Shown here: piece by piece, positions 25,419 through 50,797 of the stretch
How the letters are laid out: each line of letters opens with the position of its first letter
Position numbering within the stretch: the first letter of the stretch is position 1
From: Bacteroidaceae bacterium
GTDB taxonomy: Bacteria > Bacteroidota > Bacteroidia > Bacteroidales > Bacteroidaceae
DNA length: 64,000 nucleotides
NCBI GenBank assembly: GCA_017461605.1
Contig: JAFTXN010000009.1
Coordinates: forward strand, 62,001-126,000
Direction of reading: 5' to 3'
Program-made: the position numbers and the translations under genes
Notes under the pieces: model-generated
Databases searched by the model: none
The model's input: only the letters and a program-made list of their open reading frames with translations
What the model was told of the DNA's origin: nothing

Positions 25419-25467
25419 ACGCCTTGCAGAATTTTCAGAAAGCACTGCCGAAAATTCTGCAAGGCGT
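25419..25467. repeat. modular inverted repeat (ACGCCTTGC-type arms)
   Basis: Perfect 17-base arms 25419-25435 and 25451-25467; the loop contains AAGCACTGCC. It sits in the 306-base gap between the MCE and GHL10 genes. It is a member of the dispersed family also at 34931, 37023, 45384 and 50750. The rest of the gap shows only a weak -7 box (25611-25618). Confidence 0.85.
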
Positions 25468-25610
25468 TTTCATTTTTCCCAAAAGCACTGCCACATTTCC
25501 GACACGCTTGTCAGGCAATGGCGAAAGCCGCCTCCCGCCCCCTCACAGCACAAAGTGTCGGTGGCGACCAACTTTTGAGAACCTTCCGTCAAGCGTTAAG
25601 AAAAAAAGTG

Positions 25611-25618
25611 TAACTTTA
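25611..25618 (+). promoter_or_regulatory. likely promoter of GHL10 gene, TAACTTTA
   Basis: Seven of eight matches to TAnnTTTG, 36 bases upstream of the ATG at 25654. Confidence 0.45.
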
Positions 25619-25653
25619 CGGCCATTATTTACACCTTATAGATATATCGGCAC

Positions 25654-27153
25654 ATGAAGAAAACTTTACTGCTCCTGACATGGCTATGCGCCCTCTCCAC
25701 TCTCGCACAAGTGCTCCCACAGCCCAAACGCGAATTCCGAGGTGCTTGGATTCAAATGATTAACGGCCAATTTCAAGGCATGAGCCGCGATGCCATGCAA
25801 GCCAATCTCACACGTCAGCTCGACGAGATGAAAGCCTGCGGCGTGAATGCCATTATGTTTCAGGTGCGCGGTGAAGCCGATGCCCTCTATGCCAGCCCTT
25901 ACGAGCCCTGGAGTCGTTTCCTCACAGGCAAGCAAGGCACTCCCCCGTCCCCTTATTGGGACCCTTTGGCTTGGATGGTGAACGAATGCCACAAGCGCGG
26001 AATGGAGCTACATGCTTGGATCAACCCCTTCCGTGCCAAGACAAAAGGTACCACCCAGCTATCGACTGCGCATCCTTATGTTAAGAATCCGAAGAACTTC
26101 TTTGAATATGACGGACTCTACATCTTCGATCCCGGACTGCACGAGAACCGTCGCTACATTTGCTCCGTGGCTGCCGACATCGTACGCCGCTACGACGTGG
26201 ACGGCCTGCACATCGACGACTACTTCTACCCCTACCCTGCCAAAGGGCTTCCCATCCCCGACGACGCCACTTATGCAGCCCACCGCAACGGTTTCAACGA
26301 TCGGGGTGACTGGCGCAGATACAACGTAAACCTATTCATCGAAATGCTGCACGACTCGGTGAGAGCAGCCAAGCCTTGGGTGAAATTCGGCGTCTCGCCT
26401 TTCGGCATCTATCACAACAACAAGGCCGGCAGCAATCTGCCGGGAAGCGACACCAACGGCTTGCAGAACTATGACGACTTGTATGCCGATGTGCTCTACT
26501 GGATTCACAAGGGTTGGGTGGACTACACCATTCCTCAGATCTATTGGGAAATAGGTCACAAAGCCGCCGACTACGACCGCCTGGTGCGTTGGTGGGCACG
26601 CTATGCCGGACAACGACCGCTCTTCATCGGGCAAGACGTGGAACGCACGGTGCGTGCAGCCTCACCCACCCAGGCCGGAACAGACCAGATGCACGCCAAA
26701 CTTCATCTGCAGCGCACCCTGAACGGCATCGATGGCAGTTGCCTATGGTACAGTGCCGCCGTGGTGCGCAACGAGGGAGGGTATGCCTCTCGCCTCAAGC
26801 AGCAGTACCACAGCCTACCAGCTCTGCAGCCGCTCATGCCATTCATTGACGACAAAGCACCGGGGAAAGTAAGAAAAGTCAAGGACCTCTGGATGCCCGA
26901 CGGCTATTACCTGTTCTGGACTGCACCGAAAGCAAAGACCGAGATGGACCGTGCCATTGCCTATGTGGTATACCGATTTAACCACAAGGAGAAGATTGAC
27001 CTTGAAAATCCGTCACGCATTGTTACCATCACCGGCAACACCATGCTGAAATTGCCCTACGAAAACGGTGCCACCAAATATGTTTACGTCATCACCGCCC
27101 TCGACCGCTTGCACAACGAATCGAAACCGGTCAAGAGGAAAGTAAAACTCTAA
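25654..27153 (+). CDS. GHL10 (DUF187) family glycosyl hydrolase, DigH-like
   Basis: 499 residues. Signal peptide MKKTLLLLTWLCALSTLAQ. The GHL10 TIM barrel begins REFRGAWIQMINGQF and has FQVRGEADALY, CHKRGMELHAWINPF, VDGLHIDDYFYPYP (catalytic-type Asp residues), FGVSPFGIYHN and IPQIYWEIG. A fibronectin-like C-terminal domain follows. E. coli DigH of this family cleaves denuded peptidoglycan glycans, the product of amidases like the one encoded 1.2 kb upstream. Peptidoglycan as substrate is inferred. A second family member is at 37120-38850. Confidence 0.88.
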   Translation: MKKTLLLLTWLCALSTLAQVLPQPKREFRGAWIQMINGQFQGMSRDAMQANLTRQLDEMKACGVNAIMFQVRGEADALYASPYEPWSRFLTGKQGTPPSPYWDPLAWMVNECHKRGMELHAWINPFRAKTKGTTQLSTAHPYVKNPKNFFEYDGLYIFDPGLHENRRYICSVAADIVRRYDVDGLHIDDYFYPYPAKGLPIPDDATYAAHRNGFNDRGDWRRYNVNLFIEMLHDSVRAAKPWVKFGVSPFGIYHNNKAGSNLPGSDTNGLQNYDDLYADVLYWIHKGWVDYTIPQIYWEIGHKAADYDRLVRWWARYAGQRPLFIGQDVERTVRAASPTQAGTDQMHAKLHLQRTLNGIDGSCLWYSAAVVRNEGGYASRLKQQYHSLPALQPLMPFIDDKAPGKVRKVKDLWMPDGYYLFWTAPKAKTEMDRAIAYVVYRFNHKEKIDLENPSRIVTITGNTMLKLPYENGATKYVYVITALDRLHNESKPVKRKVKL

Positions 27154-27258
27154 AATCGGCAAACGGAGTTTTTATGCACCCTGCAAAAATCGCCGATTTC
27201 ATCGCAGAAAACAGGGGCTATACTCACCATCTTCACGCTAACCTATTATAATAAATAT

Positions 27259-29685
27259 ATGAAGGTTTTGAAATTTGGAGGTTCCTCCGTAGGAACCGCA
27301 CAAAGCATTGTCAACGTAAAGCAAATCGTTGAAGCCACGCCTCAACCTGCTGTCATTGTTGTTTCTGCACTTGGGGGCGTTACCGACCAGCTCTTGACGC
27401 TTTCGCAAAAAGCCGCTGCCGGTGATGAGACATACCGCGCCATCACCGAAGCCCTGGCCGAACGACACCACAACATGGTGGCAGATGTCATTGTGCCCTC
27501 CAAGCAAGCACACGCCCATGCACAGATTGAGACACTCATGAACGAGCTACGCAGCATCCTGCATGGCGTATTCCTCATACAAGACCTGACCACCAAGACC
27601 TCGGATGCCATCGTTTCCTATGGTGAGCGGCTGTCGTCCGTCATCGTCACAGCTCTCCTCAACGAGGCCCAACATTTCGATGCACGGCAACTCATCAAAA
27701 CCACAAGGCCGGCCGACAAGCATGTGGTGGATTTCGAAATCACCAACACCCTCGTACGCAAAGCTTTCGACCAATTCAGCGGATGCGCCGTGCTTGACGG
27801 ATTTATAGCATCCGATGCCCAAACCGGCGTAACCACTCACCTGGGTCGGGGAGGCTCCGACTATACCGCCTCCATCATTGCTGCTGCACTGGAGGCCGAA
27901 GCCCTGGAAATCTGGACAGACGTCGACGGCTTCATGACAGCCGACCCACGCATTATCCCCACGGCTTATACCATCGACGAACTGAGCTACGACGAAGCGA
28001 TGGAGCTTTGCAACTTTGGCGCCAAGGTGATATATCCTCCGACGATTTATCCCGTCTGCGTCAAGAACATTCCGATTTTTGTCCGAAACACCTTTAAGCC
28101 TTCCGGACGCGGCAGCGTAATTCGCAAGGACATCGCACCGGCCACACGCCCCATTCGCGGTATTTCCTCTGTGAACAGCATGAGTCTCGTCACTGTGAGC
28201 GGTCTCTCCATGGTGGGAGTCATCGGTGTCAACCGTCGCATCTTCACGACTTTGGCTGCCGGTGAAATCAGCGTTTTCATGGTTGCACAGACATCTTCGG
28301 AGACAAGCACCAGCATGTGCGTTACACCCGAAGACGGTCCACGTGCTTGCCGCCTCCTGGATGCCGAGTTTGCCAAGGAAATAGAGGATGGAGCCATGTT
28401 CCCGGCACAATTGCAGGAGGGGCTGGCCAGCGTCGGTGTAGTGGGCGAACGCATGAAGCACACTCCGGGCATCGCCGGAAAACTGTTCAGCGTGCTCGGG
28501 CGAAACGGTATCAGCATTTGCGCCGTAGCACTCGGGGCACTGGAGATGAACATAAGCCTTGTCATCGAGCAGGCACAGCTGCGCAAAGCGCTGAATGTGC
28601 TTCACGATAGTTTCTTCCTCAGCGAATACCAAGAGCTCAACCTGTTTGTCTGCGGCACAGGTACCGTGGGAAACAAACTGATCGAGCAAATCGCAGCGCA
28701 ACGCGAACTGCTAATGCGCGAACGCGGCTTGAAGATAAATCTGCTGGGAGTTTCCGGCCGCAGCAAAGCCATCTACGACCGTTCCGGCATCGACCCGACC
28801 AATTATAAAGAGGCTATGAAGATCGGAGGTAGCGGAGGTATCGACCGCATGGTGCAGGAGATCATCGACATGAACCCCTTCAACAGCGTGTTCGTTGACT
28901 GTACGGCCTCGCCCGAGGTGGCAGAAAAATACGAAACACTGCTTCGACACAATATATCCGTGGTGGCCGCCAACAAAATTGCAGCTTCCGGCTCGTTCGA
29001 ATCCTATCAGCAACTTAAGCAGACGGCACGCGAACGCGGTGTGAAGTACCTCTTCGAAACCAACGTAGGAGCCGGACTTCCCGTCATCAACACCATCAAC
29101 GACCTCACCGGTTCGGGCGACCGCATACTGCGGATCCAGGCCGTTCTGAGCGGCACGCTCAACTATGTGTTCAACACTTTGTCGGCCGACATCTCCCTGA
29201 GCCAAGCCGTACGCATGGCACAAGAGAATGGATACAGCGAACCCGACCCACGTATCGACTTGTCGGGAAAAGACGTGATACGCAAGCTTACCATTTTGGC
29301 GAGAGAGAGCGGCTACCGCGTTGAGACCGACGAAGTGGAAGCACGCCTGTTCATTCCCGAAGAACTTTTTGCCGGAACGCTGGAAGAATTCTGGGAAAAG
29401 CTGCCGTCACTGGATGCCGAGTTTGAGGCGGCCCGCCAACGCCTGGCAGCCGAGGACAAATGTTGGCGTTTTGTGGCAGAGTGGAACAACGGACACGGCA
29501 GCGTCGGGCTACGCGAAATCGAGCGCGGACACCCCTTCTACGCCCTCGAAGGCAGCAACAACATTGTTTGTCTCACCACCGAACGATACAAGGAATACCC
29601 CATGCTCATTCAGGGATATGGTGCCGGTGCCGACGTAACCGCCGCAGGTGTTTTCGCAGACATTATGCGCGTTGCAAACATTTAG
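27259..29685 (+). CDS. thrA: bifunctional aspartokinase I/homoserine dehydrogenase
   Basis: 808 residues. The N-terminal aspartokinase starts MKVLKFGGSSVGTAQSI and has VSYGERLSS and LGRGGSDYTASIIAAAL. Two ACT regulatory domains (~315-460) are followed by homoserine dehydrogenase from LNLFVCGTGTVGNKLIEQ, through VAANKIAASGS and TNVGAGLPVINTINDLTGSGD, to LSGTLNYVFNTL. It catalyses the first and third steps of threonine/methionine synthesis. No attenuator peptide rich in Thr/Ile was found in the 105 bases upstream. Confidence 0.97.
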   Translation: MKVLKFGGSSVGTAQSIVNVKQIVEATPQPAVIVVSALGGVTDQLLTLSQKAAAGDETYRAITEALAERHHNMVADVIVPSKQAHAHAQIETLMNELRSILHGVFLIQDLTTKTSDAIVSYGERLSSVIVTALLNEAQHFDARQLIKTTRPADKHVVDFEITNTLVRKAFDQFSGCAVLDGFIASDAQTGVTTHLGRGGSDYTASIIAAALEAEALEIWTDVDGFMTADPRIIPTAYTIDELSYDEAMELCNFGAKVIYPPTIYPVCVKNIPIFVRNTFKPSGRGSVIRKDIAPATRPIRGISSVNSMSLVTVSGLSMVGVIGVNRRIFTTLAAGEISVFMVAQTSSETSTSMCVTPEDGPRACRLLDAEFAKEIEDGAMFPAQLQEGLASVGVVGERMKHTPGIAGKLFSVLGRNGISICAVALGALEMNISLVIEQAQLRKALNVLHDSFFLSEYQELNLFVCGTGTVGNKLIEQIAAQRELLMRERGLKINLLGVSGRSKAIYDRSGIDPTNYKEAMKIGGSGGIDRMVQEIIDMNPFNSVFVDCTASPEVAEKYETLLRHNISVVAANKIAASGSFESYQQLKQTARERGVKYLFETNVGAGLPVINTINDLTGSGDRILRIQAVLSGTLNYVFNTLSADISLSQAVRMAQENGYSEPDPRIDLSGKDVIRKLTILARESGYRVETDEVEARLFIPEELFAGTLEEFWEKLPSLDAEFEAARQRLAAEDKCWRFVAEWNNGHGSVGLREIERGHPFYALEGSNNIVCLTTERYKEYPMLIQGYGAGADVTAAGVFADIMRVANI

Positions 29686-29730
29686 AAACATTTTTTTACA
29701 AAAACCATACGCAGCTTCCTCCTTTTTTCG

Positions 29731-29738
29731 TAAGTTTG
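29731..29738 (+). promoter_or_regulatory. promoter of nucleotidyltransferase gene, TAAGTTTG
   Basis: Perfect TAnnTTTG box 46 bases after thrA ends and 119 bases before the next ATG, implying separate transcription with a leader of about 110 bases. Confidence 0.5.
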
Positions 29739-29856
29739 CTACGTCTACAGACTTTTATCGAGAATGCCGATGGGAGTCTGTGGCCACTTGATGCACAAAC
29801 ATATGAGCAAGCGGCAACCATGAAAAGCAATTCTAACCATTTTAAAACCTAATAAA

Positions 29857-30768
29857 ATGAAACCTACACTTTTTCTCCTCGCAGCAGGAATGGGTAGCCG
29901 TTATGGCGGTCTGAAACAATTGGATGGCGTAGGCCCTCACGGCGAAACCATCATGGACTATTCAATTTATGATGCTATCAATGCAGGCTTCGGCAAGCTT
30001 GTTTTCGTAATCCGCAAGGATTTCGAAGAGGATTTCCGTCGCATTGTGCTCTCCAAGTATGAAGGCCACATTCCTTGCGAACTCGTGTTCCAAGCGCTGG
30101 ATGCGCTTCCCGAAGGATTTACTTGCCCTGCAGAACGCACCAAGCCCTGGGGTACCAATCACGCCGTAATGATGGGAAAGAACGTCATCAACGAACCGTT
30201 CGCCGTTATCAACTGCGACGACTTCTACGATCGCGACGCCTTCAAAGTGATGGGTAAATTCCTTTCCGAACTTCCCGATGGTAGCACCGGAAAATATGCT
30301 ATGGTGGGCTTCCGTGTGGACAACACACTCTCTGAAAGCGGTACCGTGAGCCGCGGAGTGTGCGAAAACGATGAGAACCACCATTTGAAGAGCGTTGTAG
30401 AGCGCACCAAAATTCAGCGCATGGATGGCCAGGTGAAATACCTCGACGAAAACGACGAATGGGTGGCTATCCCCGACACCACTCCCGTGTCCATGAACTT
30501 CTGGGGCTTCACCCCCGACTACTTCGCCCACAGCGATGAATTCTTCAAGAGCTTCTTGAGCGATCCCAAGAACATGGAAAACCTCAAGAGCGAGTTCTTC
30601 ATTCCTCTCATGGTAGACAAACTCATCAACGACGGAACTGCCACTTGCGAAGTACTTGACACAACCTCCAAGTGGTTTGGTGTAACCTATCCCGAAGACC
30701 GTCCGGATGTTGTTGCCAAACTCAAGAAACTCTCTGAGGATGGTGTATATCCCGAAAAGATGTTCTAA
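29857..30768 (+). CDS. NTP-transferase (sugar-phosphate nucleotidyltransferase-like) family protein
   Basis: 303 residues starting MKPTLFLLAAGMGSRYGGLKQLDG, the G-x-G-x-R...K nucleotide-binding signature of sugar-1-phosphate nucleotidyltransferases. Other motifs are WGTNHAVMMGKN, VINCDDFYDRDAF (metal-binding Asp pair) and MNFWGFTPD. The exact sugar and nucleotide are not identifiable. It has its own promoter and terminator. Confidence 0.85.
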   Translation: MKPTLFLLAAGMGSRYGGLKQLDGVGPHGETIMDYSIYDAINAGFGKLVFVIRKDFEEDFRRIVLSKYEGHIPCELVFQALDALPEGFTCPAERTKPWGTNHAVMMGKNVINEPFAVINCDDFYDRDAFKVMGKFLSELPDGSTGKYAMVGFRVDNTLSESGTVSRGVCENDENHHLKSVVERTKIQRMDGQVKYLDENDEWVAIPDTTPVSMNFWGFTPDYFAHSDEFFKSFLSDPKNMENLKSEFFIPLMVDKLINDGTATCEVLDTTSKWFGVTYPEDRPDVVAKLKKLSEDGVYPEKMF

Positions 30769-30814
30769 AATCCCTGAACCCATCGTTCAAAGCTTTTAAT
30801 AGAACACACAAATA

Positions 30815-30862
30815 AAGCACCGCCCTGCACACATTCACATGTTGCAGGGCGGTGCTTGTTTA
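30815..30862 (+). terminator. terminator after nucleotidyltransferase gene
   Basis: Perfect 15-base GC-rich arms 30815-30829 and 30843-30857 with a 13-base loop, followed by TTGTTT, 47 bases after the stop. Confidence 0.88.
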
Positions 30863-31005
30863 TACAAAGAAAAAGAAAAGCGAAACGATAAACTCATCTA
30901 CGCCTGATTGGAAGCGCAAGACATCAAGCCTGGCGAAACGAACCGGTGTGCTACCTCAAAAATCTATTACCACCATAGAAAATTGCAAACTTTTACTTTA
31001 ACTTC

Positions 31006-31036
31006 TTGCACTTGTGATACAAGTGTTATACATTTG
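31006..31036 (+). promoter_or_regulatory. toxin-antitoxin promoter with embedded palindromic operator
   Basis: TTG at 31006-31008, a 20-base spacer, then TACATTTG at 31029-31036. The spacer is filled by the perfect palindrome CACTTGT-GAT-ACAAGTG (31009-31025). A repressor bound there would block the promoter, the usual way ribbon-helix-helix antitoxins autoregulate. Confidence 0.65.
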
Positions 31037-31062
31037 CATACAGAAATATAACAACAAGGATT

Positions 31063-31311
31063 ATGGAAGCTGTAATTGATAGAAAAAAACAGACAGCATT
31101 TCGTTTGAGTTGTGATTTACTCACTAAACTGAAAGAGGCTGCAACAAGAGAAAATCGCAGTTTGAACAATTATGTGGAAAGTGTGCTTATGGATGTTATT
31201 TATAACAACCCCAATAAGCTCACTATTAAAGCGATGAAAGAAGCAAGGGAGAACCACGAACTGGAAACCCTCAACAGCGATGACATCGAGACTATGATTA
31301 ACTCTTCGTAG
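31063..31311 (+). CDS. ribbon-helix-helix-type antitoxin
   Basis: 82 residues. The first half (QTAFRLSCDLLTKLKEAATRENRSLNNYVESVL) has the strand-helix-helix pattern of MetJ/Arc-type DNA-binding proteins. The C-terminal tail is charged (ENHELETLNSDDIETMI), as in toxin-neutralising segments. It ends one base before the toxin ATG. It likely represses its own operon through the palindrome at 31009-31025. Confidence 0.82.
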   Translation: MEAVIDRKKQTAFRLSCDLLTKLKEAATRENRSLNNYVESVLMDVIYNNPNKLTIKAMKEARENHELETLNSDDIETMINSS

Positions 31312-31312
31312 A

Positions 31313-31585
31313 ATGTTTACACTCAAAATCACAAGTCAATTCAAGAAAGACTTGAAACGAATACAAAACCGACCCGACAAAATCAAACATCTTAAAGAGG
31401 TTCTTAATCTGCTAGAGGAATTCGGCTCTTTGCCGGAGAAATACAAGCCGCATAGATTGGTTGGCGATTATGCAGGGTTTATGGAATGCCATATTGAAAA
31501 TGACTTGTTACTTATATGGCTTGACCCTGAAGAAAACATCATCAAATTGGTTCGTTTGGGAAGCCACTCTGAATTATTCAAATAG
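31313..31585 (+). CDS. YafQ/RelE-family mRNA interferase toxin
   Basis: 90 residues, full length for YafQ. Motifs: ITSQFKKDLKRIQNR, LPEKYKPHRLVGDYAGFMECHI and DLLLIWLDPEENIIKLVRLGSHSELF. The family's catalytic histidines (H in KPHRL, ECHIEND and the C-terminal SHSELF) are present, so the toxin is probably active. It cleaves mRNA on the ribosome. Confidence 0.9.
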   Translation: MFTLKITSQFKKDLKRIQNRPDKIKHLKEVLNLLEEFGSLPEKYKPHRLVGDYAGFMECHIENDLLLIWLDPEENIIKLVRLGSHSELFK

Positions 31586-31733
31586 CAACCCTTTCTGTTG
31601 TAAATGGCTGCTTCGTTTTTTATACCCCATTATTTTAATATATACCTTCGTGGCAAAGAAAACGATAAGGGCACCACACAAAATTCCTTGCTGATACCAA
31701 TCTCAACCAACGCACTGCCAATTAATAAACAAT

Positions 31734-31766
31734 ATAGGGAAAAGCTTTTTGAGCTTTTCCCTATTA
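31734..31766 (-). terminator. terminator after tRNA-Lys
   Basis: Imperfect hairpin ATAGGGAAAAAGCT / AGCTTTTCCCTAT with one bulged base, just downstream of the leftward tRNA-Lys gene. Confidence 0.65.
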
Positions 31767-31771
31767 TTTTT

Positions 31772-31847
31772 GGTGATTCGCTTGGGGTTCGAACCCAAGA
31801 CCCCAACATTAAAAGTGTTGTGCTCTACCAGCTGAGCTAGCGAATCA
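31772..31847 (-). tRNA. tRNA-Lys (anticodon TTT), CCA encoded
   Basis: 76 bases. Acceptor GATTCGC pairs with GCGAATC. D-arm GCTCAGCTGGTAGAGC, anticodon loop CTTTTAA, T-arm GGGTTCGAACCCC. The gene-encoded 3' end is ACCA. A TACCTTTG box (31873-31880) lies upstream. Confidence 0.96.
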
Positions 31848-31872
31848 AACCTTTTTTACCGTTAAGCGAGTG

Positions 31873-32180: not shown

Positions 32181-32206
32181 CCCACAAATTTTAATCACAC
32201 CATTAT

Positions 32207-34876: not shown

Positions 34877-34907
34877 AGGCGACCCCCCTCGTAGGTCGCT
34901 TTTTTTA
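34877..34907 (+). terminator. terminator after alaS
   Basis: AGGCGACC / GGTCGCTT arms around CCCCTCGTA, followed by seven T. Confidence 0.88.
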
Positions 34908-34930
34908 TGTATTCGGCATATACAAAAATT

Positions 34931-34985
34931 CGCAAGGCGTTCAGAAAATTCTGCAGTGCTTGTAGAAAATTCTGAACGCCTTGCG
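34931..34985. repeat. modular inverted repeat (CGCAAGGCGTT outer arms, GCAGTGCTTG inside)
   Basis: Perfect 16-base arms 34931-34946 and 34970-34985. The loop carries the second family word GCAGTGCTTG and the linker AGAAAATTCT. It is followed by TTTTTG, so it might also back up the alaS terminator. Confidence 0.85.
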
Positions 34986-35022
34986 GATTTTTGCACAGAG
35001 CATGCACAAAACAAAAGATAGT

Positions 35023-35366: not shown

Positions 35367-36812
35367 ATGAGAAACTCATTCCTTAGAAAATGGCTACCCA
35401 CACTGTTCGCATTAGCCATCCTCACCTGCTTCTACGCTTGCTCAGAAGACACCTCAGACGGCATCAGTGTCGACCCCGACAAAAAAGTACCCGATCCTGC
35501 CGGCACTATACAACTTTCGATGCGTAATTCCGATAATGGACAAACAGAATTAGACAACATATACATCGAGAATGAGAACTTCCGTGGTCATGAAGGAGTT
35601 CACTATTTCACTTCTCTTGGACCGGTAAACGGATTAGGAAATGTGGCTCACATCCCTACGAGCGGATGGGCTTCGAGTGTTGCCGTCATCCCCGGACATG
35701 GATATGTTGCTTATTCCGCCGGCGATTCTTATTGGGGCACACCCCAAAGATGGTATCGCATATATGTAACCGACTATATCGTTAGTACATCCGGCGGCAT
35801 CATCGGAGCAAAAGTGAAATACCAAGCCCCATTTAAAGGAAGCGACGAAGTCATCGACCTCGGCATGAAGGAAATAACCTTGAATGCGAAGGGCGACACT
35901 ATCGCCCTGCCTTTCAAAAACAGCGGAGTCTTCTTGTTTCATGCCTCCACAGACTGTCCACAACTCAGCGTAGCGAAGATGTCTACCTACGATCATTCTT
36001 TCCTTACCAACGGCATAGTCATCACTTCCGAAGCCAACAACTCAGACACGCCGATAGAGGGCACGGTAACACTGACCACACTGCACGGAAAGAAAACTAC
36101 GCTTAAAGTTAGCATTGCCGGCGCGAAGCCTTTTATTGATGTATCCCAAAACAAAATAGGTCTTGATAAAGAAATCAACACTCGCACCATTACCATCAGC
36201 ACAAATACTAAAGAATGGGAAGCCGAGAGTTCGGAAAATTGGTGTACCATTTCCCAAAATGGGAATCAACTAACCATTCGCACTTCTGCTTCAACCGTTG
36301 ACCGTACCGCCGTTATCCGTTTTAAGGGATTTGACACTAAAATCACCGTACATCAAAGCAAATATGCCGTAGGCGATGAATTCAATGAAGATGGAGTGAA
36401 TGGAGTCGTAGGCTACATTGGAGATAGTCTCCGCTTTGTATTTTGTACTACCATCTCAAAAGAAATTTGGAGCACCGAATATATTTCTACGGGGGCCACA
36501 AGTAGAACAGACGGGGAATACAATATGGCGCAAATTAAGAAGCTCCCTTATTGGGAAGTACTCTACCCTGCTTTCTATTATTGCGAACAACTTAACACAA
36601 ATGGCGTTAGCGGTTGGTATCTACCAGCTATAGATGAGTTAGAAAAACTAATGCCTAGGTTCATATCTAGTTCGTGGTTCTGGTCTTCCACCGAAGATGA
36701 TAAATCCCCCGAAAACAACGCACATCAAATCTACTACAGCTATGGATATGTATATAACTATCCCATTAGCAAAAACAATGCATTAGACGTCATTGCTATT
36801 CACAAATTTTGA
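35367..36812 (+). CDS. BACON-type surface lipoprotein with DUF1566-like C-terminus
   Basis: 481 residues. A lipoprotein signal (LFALAILTCFYACSED) has its lipidated cysteine near residue 26. The middle holds a BACON-like repeat (WEAESSENWCTISQNGNQLTIRTSAS...TAVIRFKG, ~295-335). The C-terminal ~150 residues have GWYLPAIDELEKLM and WFWSSTEDD, typical of the DUF1566/Fibrobacter paralogous domain. BACON domains are thought to bind carbohydrate or mucin. It is transcribed alone with a long leader and terminator. The function is unknown. Confidence 0.8.
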   Translation: MRNSFLRKWLPTLFALAILTCFYACSEDTSDGISVDPDKKVPDPAGTIQLSMRNSDNGQTELDNIYIENENFRGHEGVHYFTSLGPVNGLGNVAHIPTSGWASSVAVIPGHGYVAYSAGDSYWGTPQRWYRIYVTDYIVSTSGGIIGAKVKYQAPFKGSDEVIDLGMKEITLNAKGDTIALPFKNSGVFLFHASTDCPQLSVAKMSTYDHSFLTNGIVITSEANNSDTPIEGTVTLTTLHGKKTTLKVSIAGAKPFIDVSQNKIGLDKEINTRTITISTNTKEWEAESSENWCTISQNGNQLTIRTSASTVDRTAVIRFKGFDTKITVHQSKYAVGDEFNEDGVNGVVGYIGDSLRFVFCTTISKEIWSTEYISTGATSRTDGEYNMAQIKKLPYWEVLYPAFYYCEQLNTNGVSGWYLPAIDELEKLMPRFISSSWFWSSTEDDKSPENNAHQIYYSYGYVYNYPISKNNALDVIAIHKF

Positions 36813-36870: not shown

Positions 36871-36902
36871 AAAGACGATCCTCTTCAGATCGTCTTTTTT
36901 GT
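36871..36902 (+). terminator. terminator after BACON lipoprotein gene
   Basis: AAAGACGATC (36871-36880) and GATCGTCTTT (36888-36897) with a seven-base loop and six T. Confidence 0.9.
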
Positions 36903-37022: not shown

Positions 37023-37089
37023 AAAATCCGCAAGGCGTTTAGATATTTCTGCAGTGCTTGTAGAAAATTCTGAACGCCTTGCGGATTTT
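37023..37089. repeat. modular inverted repeat (CGCAAGGCGTT outer arms, GCAGTGCTTG inside)
   Basis: Perfect 17-base arms 37023-37039 and 37073-37089; the loop again contains GCAGTGCTTGTAGAAAATTC. It lies between convergent genes, 30 bases beyond the GHL10 stop, so it may end that leftward transcript. Confidence 0.85.
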
Positions 37090-43527: not shown

Positions 43528-45081
43528 TTAGAGGGGCACATTACCGTGTTTCTTCGCAGGACGTGTTTCGCGCTTGTTCTCAAGTTGAGCAAGGGCACGA
43601 CAGATGCGGAAACGCGTGTTGCGCGGTTCGATAACGTCGTCGATGTAACCATACTCGGCGGCCTTGTAAGGATTGGTGAAGAGATCGTTGTACTCCTTCT
43701 CTTTCTGAGCGAGGAAAGCCTTAGGATCGGCTTGCTCCTTGGCCTCCTTGGCACTGAGAATGGCTACTGCACCACTGGCGCCCATCACTGCGATTTCGGC
43801 AGAGGGCCATGCATAATTGAGGTCGGCCTTGAGCTGCTTGCATCCCATCACGATGTGGCTTCCGCCGTAACTCTTGCGGAGCGTAACCGTGACCTTGGGA
43901 ACTGTGGCTTCGCCGTAGGCATAGAGGAGCTTGGCACCGTGACTGATCACCGCGTTGTACTCCTGTCCGGTGCCCGGCAAGAATCCCGGCACATCGACGA
44001 GGCTCACGATGGGAATGTTGAAGGCATCGCAGAAACGCACGAAGCGAGCGGCCTTGCGGCTTGCATTGCAATCGAGCACGCCGGCGTAAACACTGGGCTG
44101 GTTGGCCACGATACCAACGCTCTGTCCGTTGAAACGGGCAAAGCCGATGATGATGTTACGGGCAAAGTTGCGCTGCACCTCAAGGAACTCTCCGTTGTCG
44201 ACAACGGCAGAGATGACCTTGTACATATCGTAGGCCATGTTGGGGTTGTCGGGGATGATTTCGTTCAGGCTGTCCTCCTTACGGTCGATGGGGTCGGTGC
44301 AAACCAAACGGGGAGCCTGCTCGCGGTTGTTCTGAGGCATGAAGCCGAGGAGTTTACGGATGAGTCCGGCAAACTCTTCTTCGGTTTTGGCCGTGAAGTG
44401 ACAAACACCACTCTTCGAGCTGTGAACACCGGCTCCGCCGAGTTCTTCCTGGCTCACGTCCTCACCGGTAACGGTCTTTACCACCTTGGGACCTGTGAGG
44501 AACATGTAGCTGATTCCTTCCAGCATCACCACGAAGTCGGTAAGGGCGGGCGAATAGACAGCTCCACCGGCGCAAGGTCCGCATATACCGCTGATCTGCG
44601 GCACTACACCGGAGGCTTCGATGTTGCGTTGGAAGATGTTTCCAAATCCGGCAAGGGAATTGATACCCTCCTGAATGCGTGCTCCGCCTGAGTCGTTCAG
44701 ACCGATGCAAGGCGCACCCATCTTCATGCTCTGGTCCATCACCTTGCAAATCTTCTCGGCCATAGTTTCAGAGAGCGAGCCGCCATTCACGGTAAAGTCC
44801 TGGGCAAACACATACACCAGGCGACCATCGATGGTGCCGCTTCCGCACACCACGCCATCGCCAAGAAATTGTTTCTTCTCCATGCCGAAATTGTGGCAGC
44901 GGTGGAGTTTGAACATGTCCATCTCCTCGAAAGAACCTTTGTCCAAAAGGAGGTCGATGCGCTCGCGTGCCGTGGCTTTGCCCTTGGCATGCTGTTTCTC
45001 GATAGCCACTTCGCCACCACCCAGACGGGCCTTGGCGCGAAGTTCTACGAGTTGCTTGATTTTCTTAAGTTGTTCACTCAT
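43528..45081 (-). CDS. mmdA: methylmalonyl-CoA decarboxylase alpha/acyl-CoA carboxytransferase
   Basis: 517 residues of the carboxyltransferase family: ARERIDLLLDKGSFEEMD, LVYVFAQDFTVNGGSLSE, GLNDSGGARIQEGI, ISGICGPCAGGAVYSPALTDFV, VDVPGFLPGTGQEY and KSYGGSHIVMG. It moves carboxyl from (S)-methylmalonyl-CoA to biotin, or in reverse. It fits succinate-to-propionate metabolism. It heads the cluster mmdA-small protein-biotin carrier. Confidence 0.94.
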   Translation of the reverse strand: MSEQLKKIKQLVELRAKARLGGGEVAIEKQHAKGKATARERIDLLLDKGSFEEMDMFKLHRCHNFGMEKKQFLGDGVVCGSGTIDGRLVYVFAQDFTVNGGSLSETMAEKICKVMDQSMKMGAPCIGLNDSGGARIQEGINSLAGFGNIFQRNIEASGVVPQISGICGPCAGGAVYSPALTDFVVMLEGISYMFLTGPKVVKTVTGEDVSQEELGGAGVHSSKSGVCHFTAKTEEEFAGLIRKLLGFMPQNNREQAPRLVCTDPIDRKEDSLNEIIPDNPNMAYDMYKVISAVVDNGEFLEVQRNFARNIIIGFARFNGQSVGIVANQPSVYAGVLDCNASRKAARFVRFCDAFNIPIVSLVDVPGFLPGTGQEYNAVISHGAKLLYAYGEATVPKVTVTLRKSYGGSHIVMGCKQLKADLNYAWPSAEIAVMGASGAVAILSAKEAKEQADPKAFLAQKEKEYNDLFTNPYKAAEYGYIDDVIEPRNTRFRICRALAQLENKRETRPAKKHGNVPL

Positions 45082-45136
45082 AGCGTATAAGTGTTTTTAT
45101 GATAATGCGTAAAGAGTTTACATAGTTTGGAAAGGC

Positions 45137-45168
45137 CAAAGATAGTGCATGAGGACGTATTCACCAAA
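45137..45168 (-). promoter_or_regulatory. mmdA promoter (TTTG, 20-base spacer, TATCTTTG)
   Basis: On the minus strand TATCTTTG (45137-45144) is preceded by TTTG at the expected distance, 56 bases before the ATG. Two more -7 boxes on the same strand lie at 45223-45230 and 45290-45297, without obvious -33 elements. Confidence 0.65.
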
Positions 45169-45383
45169 TTTGCACACAACTTTTGATTGCGCAACAGAGC
45201 CTTTTTATCCGTTCGGATGGTGCAAAGATACAAATTATATGCACACCGAGGCTACTTCTGTGCAGCTTTTGGTTTTCCAGGCCGAATCGCAAAGATAACA
45301 GAGCGTGTTATGAACACCGGGAACAGCCGGTGCTTTTCCACCCATTCCCCGCCAAAAGATGCTGTGAGGGATGGCAAAAATCT

Positions 45384-45436
45384 GCAGTGCTTGCAGAATT
45401 TTCTGCAGTGCTTGTAGAAAATTCTGCAAGCACTGC
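45384..45436. repeat. modular inverted repeat (GCAGTGCTTG arms)
   Basis: Perfect 19-base arms 45384-45402 and 45418-45436, with a further GCAGTGCTTG in the loop. It lies in the 500-base gap upstream of mmdA and downstream of nothing rightward; the leftward OMP gene ends at 45581. Confidence 0.85.
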
Positions 45437-45580
45437 GGAAAAACCATGGAGGCCTTTCGAAATTTGTACCCTCGCTGCAGTCCTCCGGCAATCGGACAAA
45501 AAAATTCCCGACACGCCGTATCACTACGACCCGTCGGGGTTACGATTATAAAAAGAGAAGGTTTGTTTCTATCGAAGCCA

Positions 45581-48500
45581 TCAGAACATCATGGGACGGC
45601 CACCGCCGGAACGCATTCCGCCTCCCTGAGGACCGCGACCGCCTCCGCCACCGGCTGAAGCGCTGCCCGACTTTCCGCCGGGGAAGATGTTCAACTTATA
45701 GATGAAGTGCAGCATGATGTAAGAGTTGATGGCGTTGTTCCAAGAGTCGCGGCGCATTTGCGCGTTAATGGTGCGGCTCACGTTGCTCTGCTTATGCAGA
45801 ATATCGTAGAATTGGAGGCTGACGGTGGCCGCGTTGTTCTTGAGGAAGCTCTGTGATATCTGAGCATTCCAGAGCAACTCGTTGGTGTTCATCGAGGCTT
45901 CCGAATAACCACGGCGTGAGCTCATGCGAATGTCGGTCGAGATGCTCATGTTCCAAGCAAAGTTGAAGTTGGCATTGGCCCCGTAGGAGAAATTCCACGT
46001 GTCCATGTTGGCATTTTCCTGCAGCTTGCTGCGTGCATGCTGATAGTTGAGCGAACCGAACACACCCACGTCAAACCATGAGCCACGGTAGGCAGCATTC
46101 AGGTTCTCGCCCAGCGTGAATGTGCGCGTGGTGCTCTTCTGCACATCGGCTGCCGCAAAGATTGCGTCGTATTCGGTGGCCGAAGCTCTAAATACGGAGG
46201 GCAAACGACGTAAGTTCACATTTTTGCCACCTCGATCGAACACCGAAACATATCCCACGGAGTTGTCATAATTCAGATTGGTAAAGGTAGAAATCGTGAA
46301 GAGCTTGTCATAACCCAAACCGGTGTTGAACATGAAGTGGCCTCGCGTGTTCCAATTTCCATCTATGTTCTCGGGACGCGTGTATCGCACACCCGTTGTT
46401 TCATCATAGACCATCATGTTGCTAATCGAATTGGAAGTTTGCGAGAATTCGAGTCCACCACCGATTCCCTGCTGTCTGTCGGGATTGTAACCGTTGTAGC
46501 GAGCGCGGAAAGAGTTTGTCCACGAAGGCTCAAGGCCCGGATTACCCATCGAAACGCTCAGCGGATCGCTGTCGTCCACCACGGCGAGAAGGTTCGTCAT
46601 GGACGGCTGTGAAGACGAACCGCGGTAGCGAAGATCCAGCTGGCTGGTCTTGGAGAAGCGGAAGCGCAGCCGAACTTGGGGCGACACCTTGAAGACATCG
46701 CGCACCACAACCGTATCAATCTGGTCGGGACGCAGATACTCCATCTCGGTGCGCTGCGGATTGAAGTCGAGACCGGCATTGAAGCGTATCAACTCCGTAT
46801 TGTAGCGAACACCAATGTTGGCTTTGTGGTCCTGATAGCGATAAGTGGCATACTGACTGTTGCGTTCGTCGCGTACGGCGGCCAGAACGTCGGCCTCGGT
46901 GGGGATGGTTCCGATGGGGGGATAGTTATATTGGTCGCCCCATGTGCCATATTGGGCATCCACTTCGTCGAGATTGTAGAGCGAGCGATTGCTGTCGGTA
47001 TACCGGTAAGCATATTCGTAGCGCACTTCAGCAAACCAGTTCTTGGCAAACGGTTCGGCATAACTCAAGCGCAAACTATAGTTCCAGTTCGTAGAAGGAT
47101 TGTTGCTGTATTGGTTGATATAGTCGGATGCTTTTCCGTTTGTGTTCTGGAAGTATGTAATGTCCGAAATGGTGAACGAAGTGCTTCTGCTGTCGGTGTA
47201 GCCGGCCGATGCCCGGAATGAAAGATTTCGGCCCAGGCTTCCGAAGCGTCGCATCACCATCAAGTTACCGCTCACACCGTTGCTACGGCTTTCGCCAAGC
47301 GTTGTGCGTTCGTTGCGGTTCACAGCGATATCCTCCACATAGGAGTTGAGCGTTTCGGCAAAGATGCTGTCCAGCGGATCGACCATGCCTTCGATGGCAT
47401 ACGGGTCGTCATCAAATGTTCCCGTGCGACTCCGGCCGTTGTTGTGGCTGTCGCTGTGCGTGAAACGTGGACGGAACATGATGGTCGTCATGCTGTCAGG
47501 ATTCCACGACAGACGCAGATTGGCGCTCACATTGGTGGACGAAGAGCGGCTCTTGTTGTAGCTGTTGCTGAACGAACTTCGCGTATTTCCACCCGTGAGG
47601 AAGGTTTCCGAAGAACTTGTGCTGACAAGGTCTGTGCTGCTATGCGAATACCACACATTGCCTCCCAATTCCAGGCGACCGCCTTCGCGTTTTTTCTTCC
47701 CGTTTTCCCAAGAGAAGTCAAGGCCTGCGGCTTTGCTCGAAACCAGTCCGCCACCGCCTCCCCAGCCTCGGGGACTTCCGAAACCGCGGTCGCCGGTGTT
47801 GTTGGCCGAGCCGAAAGCTGTGATACGGCTGCGGTCGGTGAAGCGCGAGGCAAACACACGTCCAGTGTAGCGGTCGTGCGTTCCGTATCCCAAGTCTACA
47901 TTCGAGATCCACGACTCATTGAGTTCGCGCTTGGTAGCGATGTCGAGCACCGTTGTTTCCTCACCATCGTCAATGCCGGTCATCTCTGTGTAGTCGCTTT
48001 TCTTGTCGTACGCCTTTATTCGCGAAACCAGGTCCGTGGGAAGGTTCTTCATGGCCGTCTTGGTGTCGCCTTTGAAGAAGTCTTTGCCGTTGATGAGAAA
48101 TTCGGTGACGGTTTTGCCGTTCCACTTGATGGTTCCGTCGTCCGCCACTTCCACTCCCGGAAGTTGTTTCACAAGAGCCTCCAATGTAGAGCCAACCGGC
48201 ACGCGGTAGGCCGCAGCATTGAACACGGTAGTGTCCTCCTTCTGCTCCACTTTCGAGGCTGTGGCCGTTACCACCGCCGAACCCAAGGCTATGTCGGTGG
48301 ATTTCAGCAAAAGCTTTCCGACGTTCAGGGTGTCGGGAGTGGTTTCCGAAAGTTGCACGATGAGATTTGTGGGCTTATAGCTGACACACGACACGCGCAA
48401 GGTGAGTTTCCCCTGCTGCGACGTGCGAAGCGTGAAGCGTCCTTTTTCATCGGTATTTACCCCCGTGAGCATCGTGGTGTCGCGCATCAGGCGAACCGTA

Positions 48501-48622
48501 GCAAATTCTATGGCCTCGCCATTGCGCTCGTTGGCCACCGTACCGGTGATCAGCTTTGTCTGAGCCTGAAGGCCCGTGATGGTTGCCAAAATCAGAAAGA
48601 TGAGAACACTGATTCGTTTCAT
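45581..48622 (-). CDS. TonB-type outer-membrane beta-barrel protein
   Basis: 1013 residues. Signal peptide MKRISVLIFLILATITGLQA. Carboxypeptidase-regulatory-like domain (LITGTVANERNGEAIEFATV). Plug-like region (STLEALVKQLPGVEVADDG, TVTEFLINGKDFFKGD). A ~750-residue barrel (OMP_b-brl family) follows, with aromatic-rich strands. The C-terminus is Gly/Arg-rich (GGGGRGPQGGGMRSGGGRP) and ends MMF, typical of this family. No SusD partner gene is present. Its cargo is unknown. Confidence 0.88.
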   Translation of the reverse strand: MKRISVLIFLILATITGLQAQTKLITGTVANERNGEAIEFATVRLMRDTTMLTGVNTDEKGRFTLRTSQQGKLTLRVSCVSYKPTNLIVQLSETTPDTLNVGKLLLKSTDIALGSAVVTATASKVEQKEDTTVFNAAAYRVPVGSTLEALVKQLPGVEVADDGTIKWNGKTVTEFLINGKDFFKGDTKTAMKNLPTDLVSRIKAYDKKSDYTEMTGIDDGEETTVLDIATKRELNESWISNVDLGYGTHDRYTGRVFASRFTDRSRITAFGSANNTGDRGFGSPRGWGGGGGLVSSKAAGLDFSWENGKKKREGGRLELGGNVWYSHSSTDLVSTSSSETFLTGGNTRSSFSNSYNKSRSSSTNVSANLRLSWNPDSMTTIMFRPRFTHSDSHNNGRSRTGTFDDDPYAIEGMVDPLDSIFAETLNSYVEDIAVNRNERTTLGESRSNGVSGNLMVMRRFGSLGRNLSFRASAGYTDSRSTSFTISDITYFQNTNGKASDYINQYSNNPSTNWNYSLRLSYAEPFAKNWFAEVRYEYAYRYTDSNRSLYNLDEVDAQYGTWGDQYNYPPIGTIPTEADVLAAVRDERNSQYATYRYQDHKANIGVRYNTELIRFNAGLDFNPQRTEMEYLRPDQIDTVVVRDVFKVSPQVRLRFRFSKTSQLDLRYRGSSSQPSMTNLLAVVDDSDPLSVSMGNPGLEPSWTNSFRARYNGYNPDRQQGIGGGLEFSQTSNSISNMMVYDETTGVRYTRPENIDGNWNTRGHFMFNTGLGYDKLFTISTFTNLNYDNSVGYVSVFDRGGKNVNLRRLPSVFRASATEYDAIFAAADVQKSTTRTFTLGENLNAAYRGSWFDVGVFGSLNYQHARSKLQENANMDTWNFSYGANANFNFAWNMSISTDIRMSSRRGYSEASMNTNELLWNAQISQSFLKNNAATVSLQFYDILHKQSNVSRTINAQMRRDSWNNAINSYIMLHFIYKLNIFPGGKSGSASAGGGGGRGPQGGGMRSGGGRPMMF

Positions 48623-48781
48623 TTTAACTGCTTATATATATTTATGATGTGTTGGTTGCTTTCGCTTTTCTTATGACGCAAATTTCCGCATAAGGTTTAA
48701 TGCGCCCATCATTACAATGCAGGAAATCGACAAAGCATTATTTTTTCATGATAAACGCCGAGGGCAAAAGAAAAAACTCTG

Positions 48782-48789
48782 TATATTTG
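48782..48789 (+). promoter_or_regulatory. promoter of AAA-DUF4435 pair, TATATTTG
   Basis: -7 box 70 bases before the ATG at 48859. It lies inside the longer open frame beginning at 48700, so the internal ATG is the start. Confidence 0.6.
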
Positions 48790-48858
48790 CCTTGTAGCCT
48801 TACCTCCGGGAAGACACCGGACCTTATACATTATTATATATACAACACACGCATCACT

Positions 48859-49683
48859 ATGACGAAGTTGGCAAATCGCATCGCGAAGATTGAAATCAGC
48901 AGCTTGTGGAGCGGACACAAACACATTGTTTGGGAGTTGCGCCCCGGTGTAAATGTGCTCAGCGGAAAGAACGGCGAGGGAAAGAGCACCATCCTCAACA
49001 AACTTGTGCAGTTCCTCGAGACAGCTCCCTCTACCGGCGAAATTCGTGGCACGCGCCTCGGTGTTCAGATCGACTTCGAGCCAAGCGATGCCACCGGCAT
49101 CCGCTATGACATCATCCGCAGCTTCGACCGCCAGCTGGTGCGCGGTGATGGTCTCGACAAGCTCACCGATGTCCGCGTCAACACCGAGCTCGATTGGCAG
49201 CTCTATCTGCTGCAACGCCGATACCTCGACTATCAGGTCAACGTGGGCAACCGAATGATAGCCCTGCTCACCGGCGGCGACCCGTTGGCCGGCGACCGTG
49301 CCAGAGAGGCTGCGCAAGCGAAGACACGCTTTCAAGACCTTGTGGACGAACTGTTCAGCGAAACGGGAAAGCGCATCGACCGCACTTGCAACGAAATCAG
49401 ATTTGAGCAATACGGAGAGAAACTTTCGCCCTACCTGCTCTCGAGTGGCGAGAAGCAGATTCTGCTAATCCTCCTCACAGCCCTGACCGAGGACATGCAG
49501 CCCTACGTCATCTTCATGGATGAGCCGGAAGCCAGCCTGCACTTTGAGTGGCAGCAGAAACTCATCCGAATGGTGTGCGAGCTCAACCCGAACGCTCAGA
49601 TAATACTCACCACGCACTCGCCGGCCGTCATCATGGACGGATGGACCGACGTCGTAACCGAAGTTTCGGAGATAACATTCTAA
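48859..49683 (+). CDS. ABC/SMC-type AAA ATPase (AriA-like)
   Basis: 274 residues from MTKLANRIAKIEISSLW. Walker A GKNGEGKST (36-44), signature LSSGEKQ (194-200), Walker B VIFMDEPE (217-224) and switch His253 (TTHSP) are all present, so it should be active. The insert between A and signature is short, as in AAA_15/OLD-like ATPases. The DUF4435 gene starts 6 bases after its stop. AAA_15 plus DUF4435 is the composition of the PARIS system (AriA-AriB), but in Bacteroidales such pairs may also be housekeeping. Confidence 0.85.
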   Translation: MTKLANRIAKIEISSLWSGHKHIVWELRPGVNVLSGKNGEGKSTILNKLVQFLETAPSTGEIRGTRLGVQIDFEPSDATGIRYDIIRSFDRQLVRGDGLDKLTDVRVNTELDWQLYLLQRRYLDYQVNVGNRMIALLTGGDPLAGDRAREAAQAKTRFQDLVDELFSETGKRIDRTCNEIRFEQYGEKLSPYLLSSGEKQILLILLTALTEDMQPYVIFMDEPEASLHFEWQQKLIRMVCELNPNAQIILTTHSPAVIMDGWTDVVTEVSEITF

Positions 49684-49689
49684 CAAACC

Positions 49690-50724
49690 ATGGCCAGGAG
49701 GCTCTCCAAGAATCTCAATTCCGCCTATATCGAGGCGGCCAACGCGCTCCGAGGGAAGAAAGCGCGGCGACGCATTGTGGCTTATGTCGAGAGCTACGAT
49801 GACGTCTACTTCTGGAGTCACGTACTTCGCCCCTTGGAGACGGAACATTTCTACTTCGAGGTGATGCTTCCCTCCCGCAGCACGCTCACTCGGGGCAAGA
49901 AGCAGGCACTCTCGCAAAACCTCGGGCCATACATGATCGCCTGCGTCGATGCCGACTACGACTACGCCATGCAAGGGGCTACCGCAACGTCGCTTCAGGT
50001 GTGCCAATCGGAATTTGTGTTCCACACCTACGCTTACGCCATCGAGAACTACGAATGCTACGCTCCCTCCCTGCAAAATGCGTGTGTGGCGGCCACACTC
50101 AACGACAAGCGTCTGTTCGACTTTGAAGACTTCCTACAGAAATTCTCACGCATCGTATGGCCGTTGCTGGTGTGGAACCTGTGGTGCTATCGCTACGGGG
50201 AATATCGCCACTTCACCATGCAGAATTTCTGCGACATCGTGGCTCTCACCGAGATGAACTACTATCATCCGGAACAAACGTTGGAGAAATTGCAACGGCG
50301 TGTCAATGCCAAAATCAGCCGCCTGCAACGGCAGTTTCCGCAAGGGCGAAAGACCTACAAGCCCTTCATGAACGAGCTGGTGCAGCAGCTGGGTTTCAGC
50401 CCGGAGACAGCCTATCTCTACATGCGTGGCCACGATCTGCAGGACGCCGTCGTATTGCCCCTCATGGGAGGCATCTGCGAGACACTGCGACGCGACCGCG
50501 AACGAGAGATACGCCGGTTGGCCGAACACCACACCCAAATGCAGAACGAGCTGTCGGCATATCAGCATGCCGCAGCATCGATTGCCGACATCCTGCGCAA
50601 GCAGACGACCTACGACACCGCCCCCACCTACCTGCGTATCCGCGACAATATCCGCCGACACATCGAGCGGCTCGAAGCACGCATCGCGCCCCCACCGGCC
50701 GGGGCGGGCGACACAACTCCATAG
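49690..50724 (+). CDS. DUF4435/Toprim-like protein (AriB-like)
   Basis: 344 residues. The N-terminal domain shows the Toprim pattern: RRIVAYVESYDDVYFW with Glu34, and YMIACVDADYDYA with the D-x-D pair 87/89. DUF4435 features follow (FVFHTYAYAIENYECY). The C-terminal half is helical (ERYAGW-type charged repeats, 260-330). In PARIS, AriB is released by AriA on sensing a phage anti-restriction protein and cleaves a host tRNA. The equivalent residues are kept here; the function is inferred. Confidence 0.82.
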   Translation: MARRLSKNLNSAYIEAANALRGKKARRRIVAYVESYDDVYFWSHVLRPLETEHFYFEVMLPSRSTLTRGKKQALSQNLGPYMIACVDADYDYAMQGATATSLQVCQSEFVFHTYAYAIENYECYAPSLQNACVAATLNDKRLFDFEDFLQKFSRIVWPLLVWNLWCYRYGEYRHFTMQNFCDIVALTEMNYYHPEQTLEKLQRRVNAKISRLQRQFPQGRKTYKPFMNELVQQLGFSPETAYLYMRGHDLQDAVVLPLMGGICETLRRDREREIRRLAEHHTQMQNELSAYQHAAASIADILRKQTTYDTAPTYLRIRDNIRRHIERLEARIAPPPAGAGDTTP

Positions 50725-50749
50725 ACTTCTTTTCACACACCCTATCCTG

Positions 50750-50797
50750 AAAAATCCGCAGTGCTTGTAGAATTTTCTGCAAGCACTGCGGATTTTT
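50750..50797. repeat. modular inverted repeat (GCAGTGCTTG arms) after DUF4435 gene
   Basis: Perfect 18-base arms 50750-50767 and 50780-50797 with a 12-base loop, followed by AGAACGCCTTG, the second family word. It begins 26 bases past the stop and ends in a T-run (ATTTTT), so it may terminate the pair's transcript. The rest of the gap to 51002 shows only a weak -7 box TACCTTTA at 50956-50963. Confidence 0.85.

Follow-up and report, generated by a model that had tools for sequence, protein, structure and literature searches.

The DNA analysed here is a stretch of 64,000 nucleotides (the window: positions 62,001 to 126,000 of contig JAFTXN010000009.1, assembly GCA_017461605.1, from a bacterium assigned to the Bacteroidaceae) whose intergenic regions carry short palindromic arrays belonging to a family that extends over the whole genome. 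Each array is built on a register of 21 bp, in which an 11-bp word, present in either orientation, alternates with a 10-bp joint, AGAAWWTTCT, where WW is AA, AT or TT. Based on the evidence presented below, it is tentatively proposed that these arrays are phased-bend architectural sites, whose words may have been shuffled by inversion between inverted repeats and by copying between loci. This functional reading, which is possible though short of probable, draws on features of the sequence: the 21-bp register, the A-tract joints, the inherited sites, the even spacing, the turnover of words and the species-specific word sets.

The genome holding the window (G000) is a draft of 2.06 Mb in 10 contigs (81% complete), of which 856 kb (41%) were read, namely the window and 40 further stretches. 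Its alanyl-tRNA synthetase (AlaRS) finds its best matches in an uncultured Bacteroidales metagenome-assembled genome (81% identity) and in Alloprevotella sp. OH1205_COT-284 and Prevotellamassilia timonensis (78%), and the host is therefore placed as a probable Prevotellaceae-type bacterium. The main comparison is with another species of this genus (G019; median protein identity 91%), also a draft, of which 400 kb, about a sixth of the genome, were read. One genome represents each species throughout, genes were called with a simple gene caller of our own, and the orthology between G000 and G019 comes mostly from one contig pair (C2 of G000 and C26 of G019), whose sites are orthologous and not independent. 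Forward words are written A and B, and reversed words A' and B' or a and b.

The sequence-only reading of the window had described an intergenic, dispersed and modular family of inverted repeats, similar in look to repetitive extragenic palindromic (REP) sequences and bacterial interspersed mosaic elements (BIMEs), and this description is borne out by counts and locations. Word B occurs 249 times in the G000 genome (3 in the reversed control) and the 10-bp core of word A 100 times (7 in the control), so that both words are spread genome-wide and not limited to the window. Searching for words and register together, 104 arrays were found in the 856 kb of G000, compared to 3 in the reversed sequence, and 56 in the 400 kb of G019. 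A pattern made of B plus the joint (up to three mismatches) had 255 matches in G000 and 366 in G019, and no more than six in any of 148 other relatives searched. Of the G000 arrays, 52 lie in gaps between tandem genes, 27 between divergent and 16 between convergent ones, with one at a sequence edge and eight in called genes, seven of the latter being two-word matches; all G000 gaps of at least 100 bp comprise 207 tandem, 67 divergent and 59 convergent ones.

The two-word shuffled grammar that had been claimed stands in part: the words are modular and occur in both orientations, but they are not combined freely, the slots being constrained and the 21-bp register stricter. Most arrays contain three or four words. 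B or b occupies the middle of 77 of the 83 well-scored triplets in G000 and of 42 of the 44 in G019, and the outer words mostly face outward, slot 1 being forward in 69/83 and 39/44 triplets and slot 3 reverse in 68/83 and 38/44, respectively. Outer words complementary to each other were counted in 48 of the 83 G000 triplets, where shuffles would give 29.8, and in 27 of the 44 G019 triplets, where they would give 17.4; complementarity at the spacer centre is weak (37/80 vs 28.2 expected, P 0.024). Beyond the array core, T/A-rich stretches continue in the same register as a degenerate slot. G000 also contains arrays of the same register made of other sequence: type II, with joints such as CAGAAAAGTG and words such as GCAAGGCCTGC plus the B' word, and type III, with the joint AATATATATT.

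The two sister species largely share the places of their arrays. For 37 G000 elements (in 35 gaps, two of which hold two elements each) both flanking genes were located at one place in G019, and 35 of them are matched by a G019 element; in both exceptions G019 has a type II array there. Starting from G019, 34 of 37 sites are occupied, the three exceptions being an empty site, a diverged inverted repeat and a gap without a clear array. When all 21-bp arrays are considered, 102 orthologous intergenic regions divide into 59 with an array in neither species, 6 in G019 only, 2 in G000 only and 35 in both (Fisher p ~1e-18). The 40-bp flanks of these elements show ungapped identities of 0.21–0.99 (median 0.52), and at one inherited site the whole array type is replaced, being I in one species and II in the other.

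At the kept sites the words themselves turn over. The comparison of words covers 29 ortholog pairs, with one G019 array counted twice; 8 of the 37 elements were omitted because an array was missing, because the two sides did not both have a three-word array, or because there were two candidate arrays. In 10 pairs the triplets are identical and in 5 only a flip of the middle word separates them, while 3 fit an inversion of the triplet as a whole, whether or not its middle word was flipped as well. In another 4 the composition is equal and the difference is of some other kind, and in the remaining 7 it is the composition that differs. The identity of the middle slot equals random dealing (16 vs 15.4), its orientation being randomised, and the outer slots retain ancestry (34/58 vs 22.3, P 0.0014); such a pattern would be predicted if the loop between inverted arms could flip. 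As place and register are inherited while words are rewritten, selection on shape may become separable from selection on sequence, and the arrays offer a direct handle on the concerted evolution of short repeats over a bacterial chromosome.

The arrays are also spaced more evenly than expected. For all 21-bp arrays in G000 (106 loci, median gap 6.1 kb) the coefficient of variation (CV) of the gaps is 0.69 vs 0.91 in the null (P 0.0013), and 6% of gaps are shorter than 3 kb vs 25%; for G019 (62 loci, median gap 5.4 kb) the CV is 0.50 vs 0.81, a value reached in 0/3000 draws. With type I sites of G000 alone (97 loci, 87 gaps), 4.6% of gaps are below 3 kb, compared to 23–26% for draws from intergenic gaps. 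Stricter nulls gave CV P values of 0.0013–0.033 (G000) and 0–0.002 (G019); with draws restricted to intergenic gaps of at least 250 bp these were 0.033 and 0.002, and the share of gaps below 3 kb was matched in 0/3000 draws in both species. On G000 C2 between 25 and 179 kb, 22 of 28 gaps measure 4–7 kb.

The register also shows in the intergenic tandem repeats of three of the genomes. Among intergenic rows reported by Tandem Repeats Finder (overlapping rows counted apart), period 21 leads with 63 of 132 in G000, 37 of 78 in G019 and 19 of 40 in a third species of the comparison, G015; with genes included, the densities are 84, 108 and 75 period-21 rows per Mb, respectively. The centre of the AAWWTT joint is always AA, AT or TT and never TA (0/199), although TA is one step away, and a TpA step occurs in 2 of 227 all-AT joint centres vs 74% of intergenic all-AT 6-mers; for intergenic AAWWTT as a whole, with the arrays counted in, the figure for TA is 24 of 568. 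Curvature was predicted, with a wedge model, as the ratio of end-to-end to contour length (lower values being more curved). The arrays of G000 and G019 have a predicted value of 0.857 (n = 113), other intergenic DNA 0.934 (n = 233; p 3e-31) and shuffles 0.96, and the G015 arrays have 0.911 (n = 21, p 0.002). When periods of 15–27 bp were scanned, the predicted bend was strongest at 21 (0.916), with 0.922 at 22. Another genome, G053, carries arrays of unrelated sequence that consist of four units in 84 bp, in a 21-bp register, with GTTTG-N7-CAAAC joined by NATN (e.g., at joined positions 11908, 18195, 30171, and 36687), and six of them are predicted to be even more curved (0.78–0.85), random windows having 0.96. 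G053 also contains 22-bp arrays of other sequence, and many of its gaps measure 4–9 kb. Intergenic palindromic arrays with a 22-bp period, e.g., GTATCAAGCGCTTGATAC, were observed in G000 itself (C2 14797–14881; C9_200k 245174 and 250421), perhaps another phased family.

Other species of the genus keep the joint and the register and use different words. A search for two joints separated by any 11 bp (up to one mismatch) was positive in 25 of 399 genomes of the family, a draw that did not include G019, with one match in each of three genomes for the reversed control; counts were 97 in G000, 55 in G048, 55 in G015, 19 in G005, 9 in G030, 7 in G047 and 7 in G082. The words of G015 are AGTGTAGTCCC and AGTACTACGAY around a near-palindromic RTCGCWGCGAY, those of G048 are ACCTAACGAGT and ACCTCWGAGST, the G005 word begins with ACGTGGGA and the G030 word is RTCAGTACGYY. 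A stretch of 400 kb of G015 yielded 21 arrays, compared to 0 when the sequence was reversed, and flanking words are complementary in 13 of the 21. Downstream of alaS, a locus picked because the window carries an array there, arrays with other words are present in G048, G015, and G030; the alaS locus of a cultured relative, Alloprevotella sp. OH1205, also carries an array. The genus would provide a natural dialect series in which to seek a factor that reads the arrays, if one exists. Repeats of a different kind were seen in two members. G004, which does not have the AGAAWWTTCT joint, carries arrays of 9-bp period, GTTAACTTC/GAAGTTAAC, on C1 900001–1040000 (63 rows in 140 kb), and G048 C1 carries a repeat of several hundred bp (e.g., at 13355, 23939, and 43781) with the words GCGAAGGCAAA and GTGAAGGCAAAA in both orientations, in 12 clusters over 220 kb, some of them a single word.

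Taken together, these observations suggest a mechanism in which each array would bend or wrap DNA, its probable partner being a nucleoid-organising protein (a putative binder of the HU, condensin or gyrase kind), with roughly one architectural site per 6–8 kb. Given such a task, selection would keep place, register and bend and many words would be tolerated. The inverted arms would in turn allow the middle word to flip and the outer words to become matched, by loop inversion or template switching, and copying between loci would homogenise the word set within a species, giving rise to dialects. The wider form of this idea, that the chromosome is organised by a system encoded in DNA shape and not in sequence, with evenly placed intergenic arrays selected for a two-turn register and a bend and with words that are a copied species dialect, is doubtful rather than probable. 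If it were true, type I, type II and the GTTTG…CAAAC arrays of G053 would do the same job. The type III array tested makes an account by shape less tenable for the arrays as a whole.

Several results weigh against the architectural reading. That type III array is predicted to be straight (0.986). With genes included, period-21 rows reach 23 per Mb in G048, 14 in G004, 43 in G053 and 50 in G042, compared to 27 in 79 other Bacteroidales loci, so that the register is no universal mark and is exceptional only in three of the compared genomes (G000, G019, and G015). The spacing is patchy: on C9 sparse stretches of 18–34 kb lie partly in core genes, such as those for HSP90, DnaG and galactokinase, and one of them has PglZ and WYL genes (ten proteins sampled), and in G053 the gaps have a CV of 0.60, a purely descriptive value from 14 gaps in which arrays of 21 and 22 bp are combined. 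Site conservation is known for the G000–G019 pair only, which use the same words; in 51 gene neighbourhoods conserved between G015 and G000, strict arrays were present in G000 only in 2, in G015 only in 0 and in both in 0, and downstream of alaS no array was found in G047, G057, and G005, three of the six array-bearing relatives. As regards the proposed shuffling, the share of G000 triplets with a complementary slot pair of any kind is near expectation (58/83 vs 54.8, P 0.25). The five window hairpins, folded as RNA, have z-scores of -7.4 to -12.7, a stability which leaves room for a role as RNA or cruciform. Finally, the placement could in part come from passive evolution of repeats, with selection acting only against insertions in genes and promoters.

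Intergenic repeats of bacteria are often taken for mobile debris. The likeliest alternative holds that the arrays are a non-autonomous element of the REP type or of the miniature inverted-repeat transposable element (MITE) type, moved by a putative transposase and mostly fixed by now, homogenised by gene conversion and placed by avoidance of genes and promoters. High copy number, species-specific sequence and mostly intergenic location speak for such an origin, as does a clearly empty site at G000 C2 40676–40729, opposite an array in G019. A tail word, CAAAGTGTCAGC, stands at a fixed offset on one side of some arrays, with 27 flanks among 116 arrays (up to two mismatches; e.g., the left flank at 25416 of the window), and its exact copies are all intergenic, 11 in the G000 sample and 11 in that of G019; it is similar to the IS5-type ends given for BrickBuilt, an element discussed below. 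Against this, sites are inherited while words turn over, spacing is even with few gaps below 3 kb, no target duplication is recognisable at the empty site, whose flanks are too diverged to define one, and no paired terminal inverted repeats were found, the tail word being one-sided and the search for a partner no better than its control. For the same one-sidedness GACAAAGTGTC, which stands at offset 31 and had looked like a terminal inverted repeat, was rejected as such. Mobilisation by a RAYT (REP-associated tyrosine transposase), which the sequence-only reading had put forward, is not supported: counted as a family only, the Y1 transposase PF01797 has one member each in G000, G019, and G057 and two in G047, none was found in G048, G015, G005, and G030, four array-bearing drafts that are 85–95% complete, and it is present in 10 of 18 genomes searched, among them genomes without the joint pattern. 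A RAYT/Y1 enzyme as a requirement was accordingly discarded, on a search confined to this one transposase family. No GTAG- or CGTC-type tag at the foot of the palindromes was apparent by eye in the G000 words, a point on which no dedicated scan was made. Carriage by plasmids or phages was likewise set aside, no match having been found in two collections for the single element tested (34905–35020). On balance, a purely mobile nature appears somewhat unlikely; a mobile origin is nevertheless compatible with the architectural reading as a later use, and is possible.

A role at transcript 3' ends, as terminators or stabilisers of mRNA, had also been suggested. It agrees with the very stable RNA hairpins, with parts of two window arrays (45381 and 50776) that match a terminator pattern, and with the position of the arrays, at a median of 77 bp from gene 3' ends and about 240 bp from 5' ends. 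As a general role it is weakened by the 27 of 95 classified G000 arrays that lie between divergent genes and by the outer words, whose complementarity is missing from 35 of the 83 G000 triplets and 17 of the 44 in G019. In addition, among 149 array-bearing 3' ends pooled from the two species, 44 have a separate terminator-like hairpin ahead of the array, compared to 18.7% of length-matched control 3' ends without an array (99/291 over the full 140 nt); separate terminators are no less frequent than expected, and the arrays therefore do not appear to be a general substitute for them. This role was set aside as the general function and is an unlikely explanation of the family, the two matching arrays notwithstanding.

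It is less likely still that the words are DNA uptake sequences, that is, species dialects that mark self DNA and are held at intervals by uptake bias. Uptake sequences vary by lineage, and the arrays resemble them in that words particular to a species recur at intervals over its genome, some of them in inverted pairs; exact words in genes outside arrays (6 A and 6 B in 856 kb) also show a small excess over the reversed controls (1 and 2; 12 vs 3). Nonetheless, 185 of 207 exact words in the same sample lie within arrays (59/68 for the A core, 126/139 for B), two words coexist per array, and it is the joint, not the word, that is common to species. Arrays are also far rarer than known uptake sequences, which occur about once per kb. 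Plain minisatellites arising by slippage and without function, to which tandem 21-bp units, variable copy number and the period-21 repeats of other Bacteroidales loci would point, are very improbable in view of the three-slot grammar, the site conservation, the spacing and the same few words shared by about 100 loci, which already disfavours them.

Within the window, word A (up to one mismatch) occurs 10 times and word B 22 times, above all 100 shuffles of the window (means 1.4 and 5.9). The five hairpins reported earlier are all present at their positions and all lie between predicted genes. The array at 25417..25491 reads a-b-A-b, an A'-B'-A core with an extra B', and stands between co-directional genes, 70 bp beyond the stop at 25347; G019 has the same core, abA, at its orthologous site. 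The array A-B-a (34932..34984) lies downstream of alaS, 95 bp beyond the stop of that gene, and is preceded by a separate terminator-like hairpin with a T run (seen by eye; the pattern scan reported it on the minus strand only), in a region that is identical in G019 at 122 of 123 bp. A second A-B-a array (37030..37082) lies between convergent genes with a separate terminator-like hairpin in front, at 36871, and the orthologous G019 gap has a type II array instead. That gap, between the orthologs of the genes flanking at 36812 and 37120 (G019 C32, ~53457–56412), is 2.6 kb longer than the window's and contains, adjoining the type II array, a stretch that by eye resembles a DNA cytosine methyltransferase. 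The array B-B-b (45384..45436) is found 145 bp beyond the stop of the minus-strand gene 45581–48622, and the G019 gap has BBb and a second array, Abb. B-b-a (50758..50810) is flanked by a DUF4435 gene, whose stop is at 50724, and by a gene for a beta-galactosidase, with a tail-like word (one mismatch) at offset 31 and B-b at the G019 site.

Two relics had also been proposed, at 10490 and 55211. The first (10495..10505) belongs to the family as a lone B' word with AT-rich flanks, and a single b word is likewise present in the G019 gap. The second is not a relic of A and B but a type III array of about five copies in the 21-bp register (55204..55310), with other joints, mainly AATATATATT, words similar to CACGYCTTGC and a B-like word adjoining its end; no array was found at its G019 ortholog, and it is predicted to be straight. 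Positions 10624–10719 hold a long imperfect inverted repeat whose 34-bp arms are 88% complementary and which has no relation to the array words. The Rfam scan of the window returned two tRNAs only, with no match above the gathering score to a known RNA family for the arrays.

No description of these arrays was found in the openly licensed PubMed Central literature searched. REP/BIME sequences and REPINs (REP doublets forming hairpins) with their RAYT are also dispersed, intergenic, palindromic, high-copy, species-specific and mosaic (cf. PMC3733652). In contrast, the arrays described here have a 21-bp register, interchangeable 11-bp words on a conserved joint and even spacing, and a Y1 transposase was not found in four of the genomes that bear them. 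The DNA uptake sequences of Neisseriaceae and Pasteurellaceae share the short species-specific words, the dialects and the inverted intergenic pairs (cf. PMC2397512, PMC7811141), whereas the arrays have few genic copies, several words each and a joint common to species. BOX elements of the pneumococcus and the neisserial intergenic mosaic elements (NIME) are modular mosaic repeats as well. A 21-bp register of swapped words is not known from either. Phased A-tract curved DNA, such as sites of the gyrase or HU type, resembles the arrays in its A-tracts without TpA at whole helical turns (cf. PMC3940949); the arrays differ in their species-specific words and in the site-by-site turnover of these.

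Among the literature searched, the nearest described case in the Bacteroidales is BrickBuilt of Porphyromonas gingivalis, which has 23-nt units in 19 copies, a leader and a tail, and IS5-like terminal repeats (PMC4596501). Together with other MITEs of P. gingivalis it shares with the arrays the order, the intergenic location and the short tandem units within a larger element, and some of its locations are common to P. gulae, which recalls the inherited sites reported here (PMC4596501). A 23-nt unit of this kind is rare in the present genomes (1.2 period-23 rows per Mb in G000, 0 in G019). The arrays differ from BrickBuilt in that no paired ends were found, in their units of 21 bp, in words that swap and flip, and in their number, about 100 in 41% of the genome.

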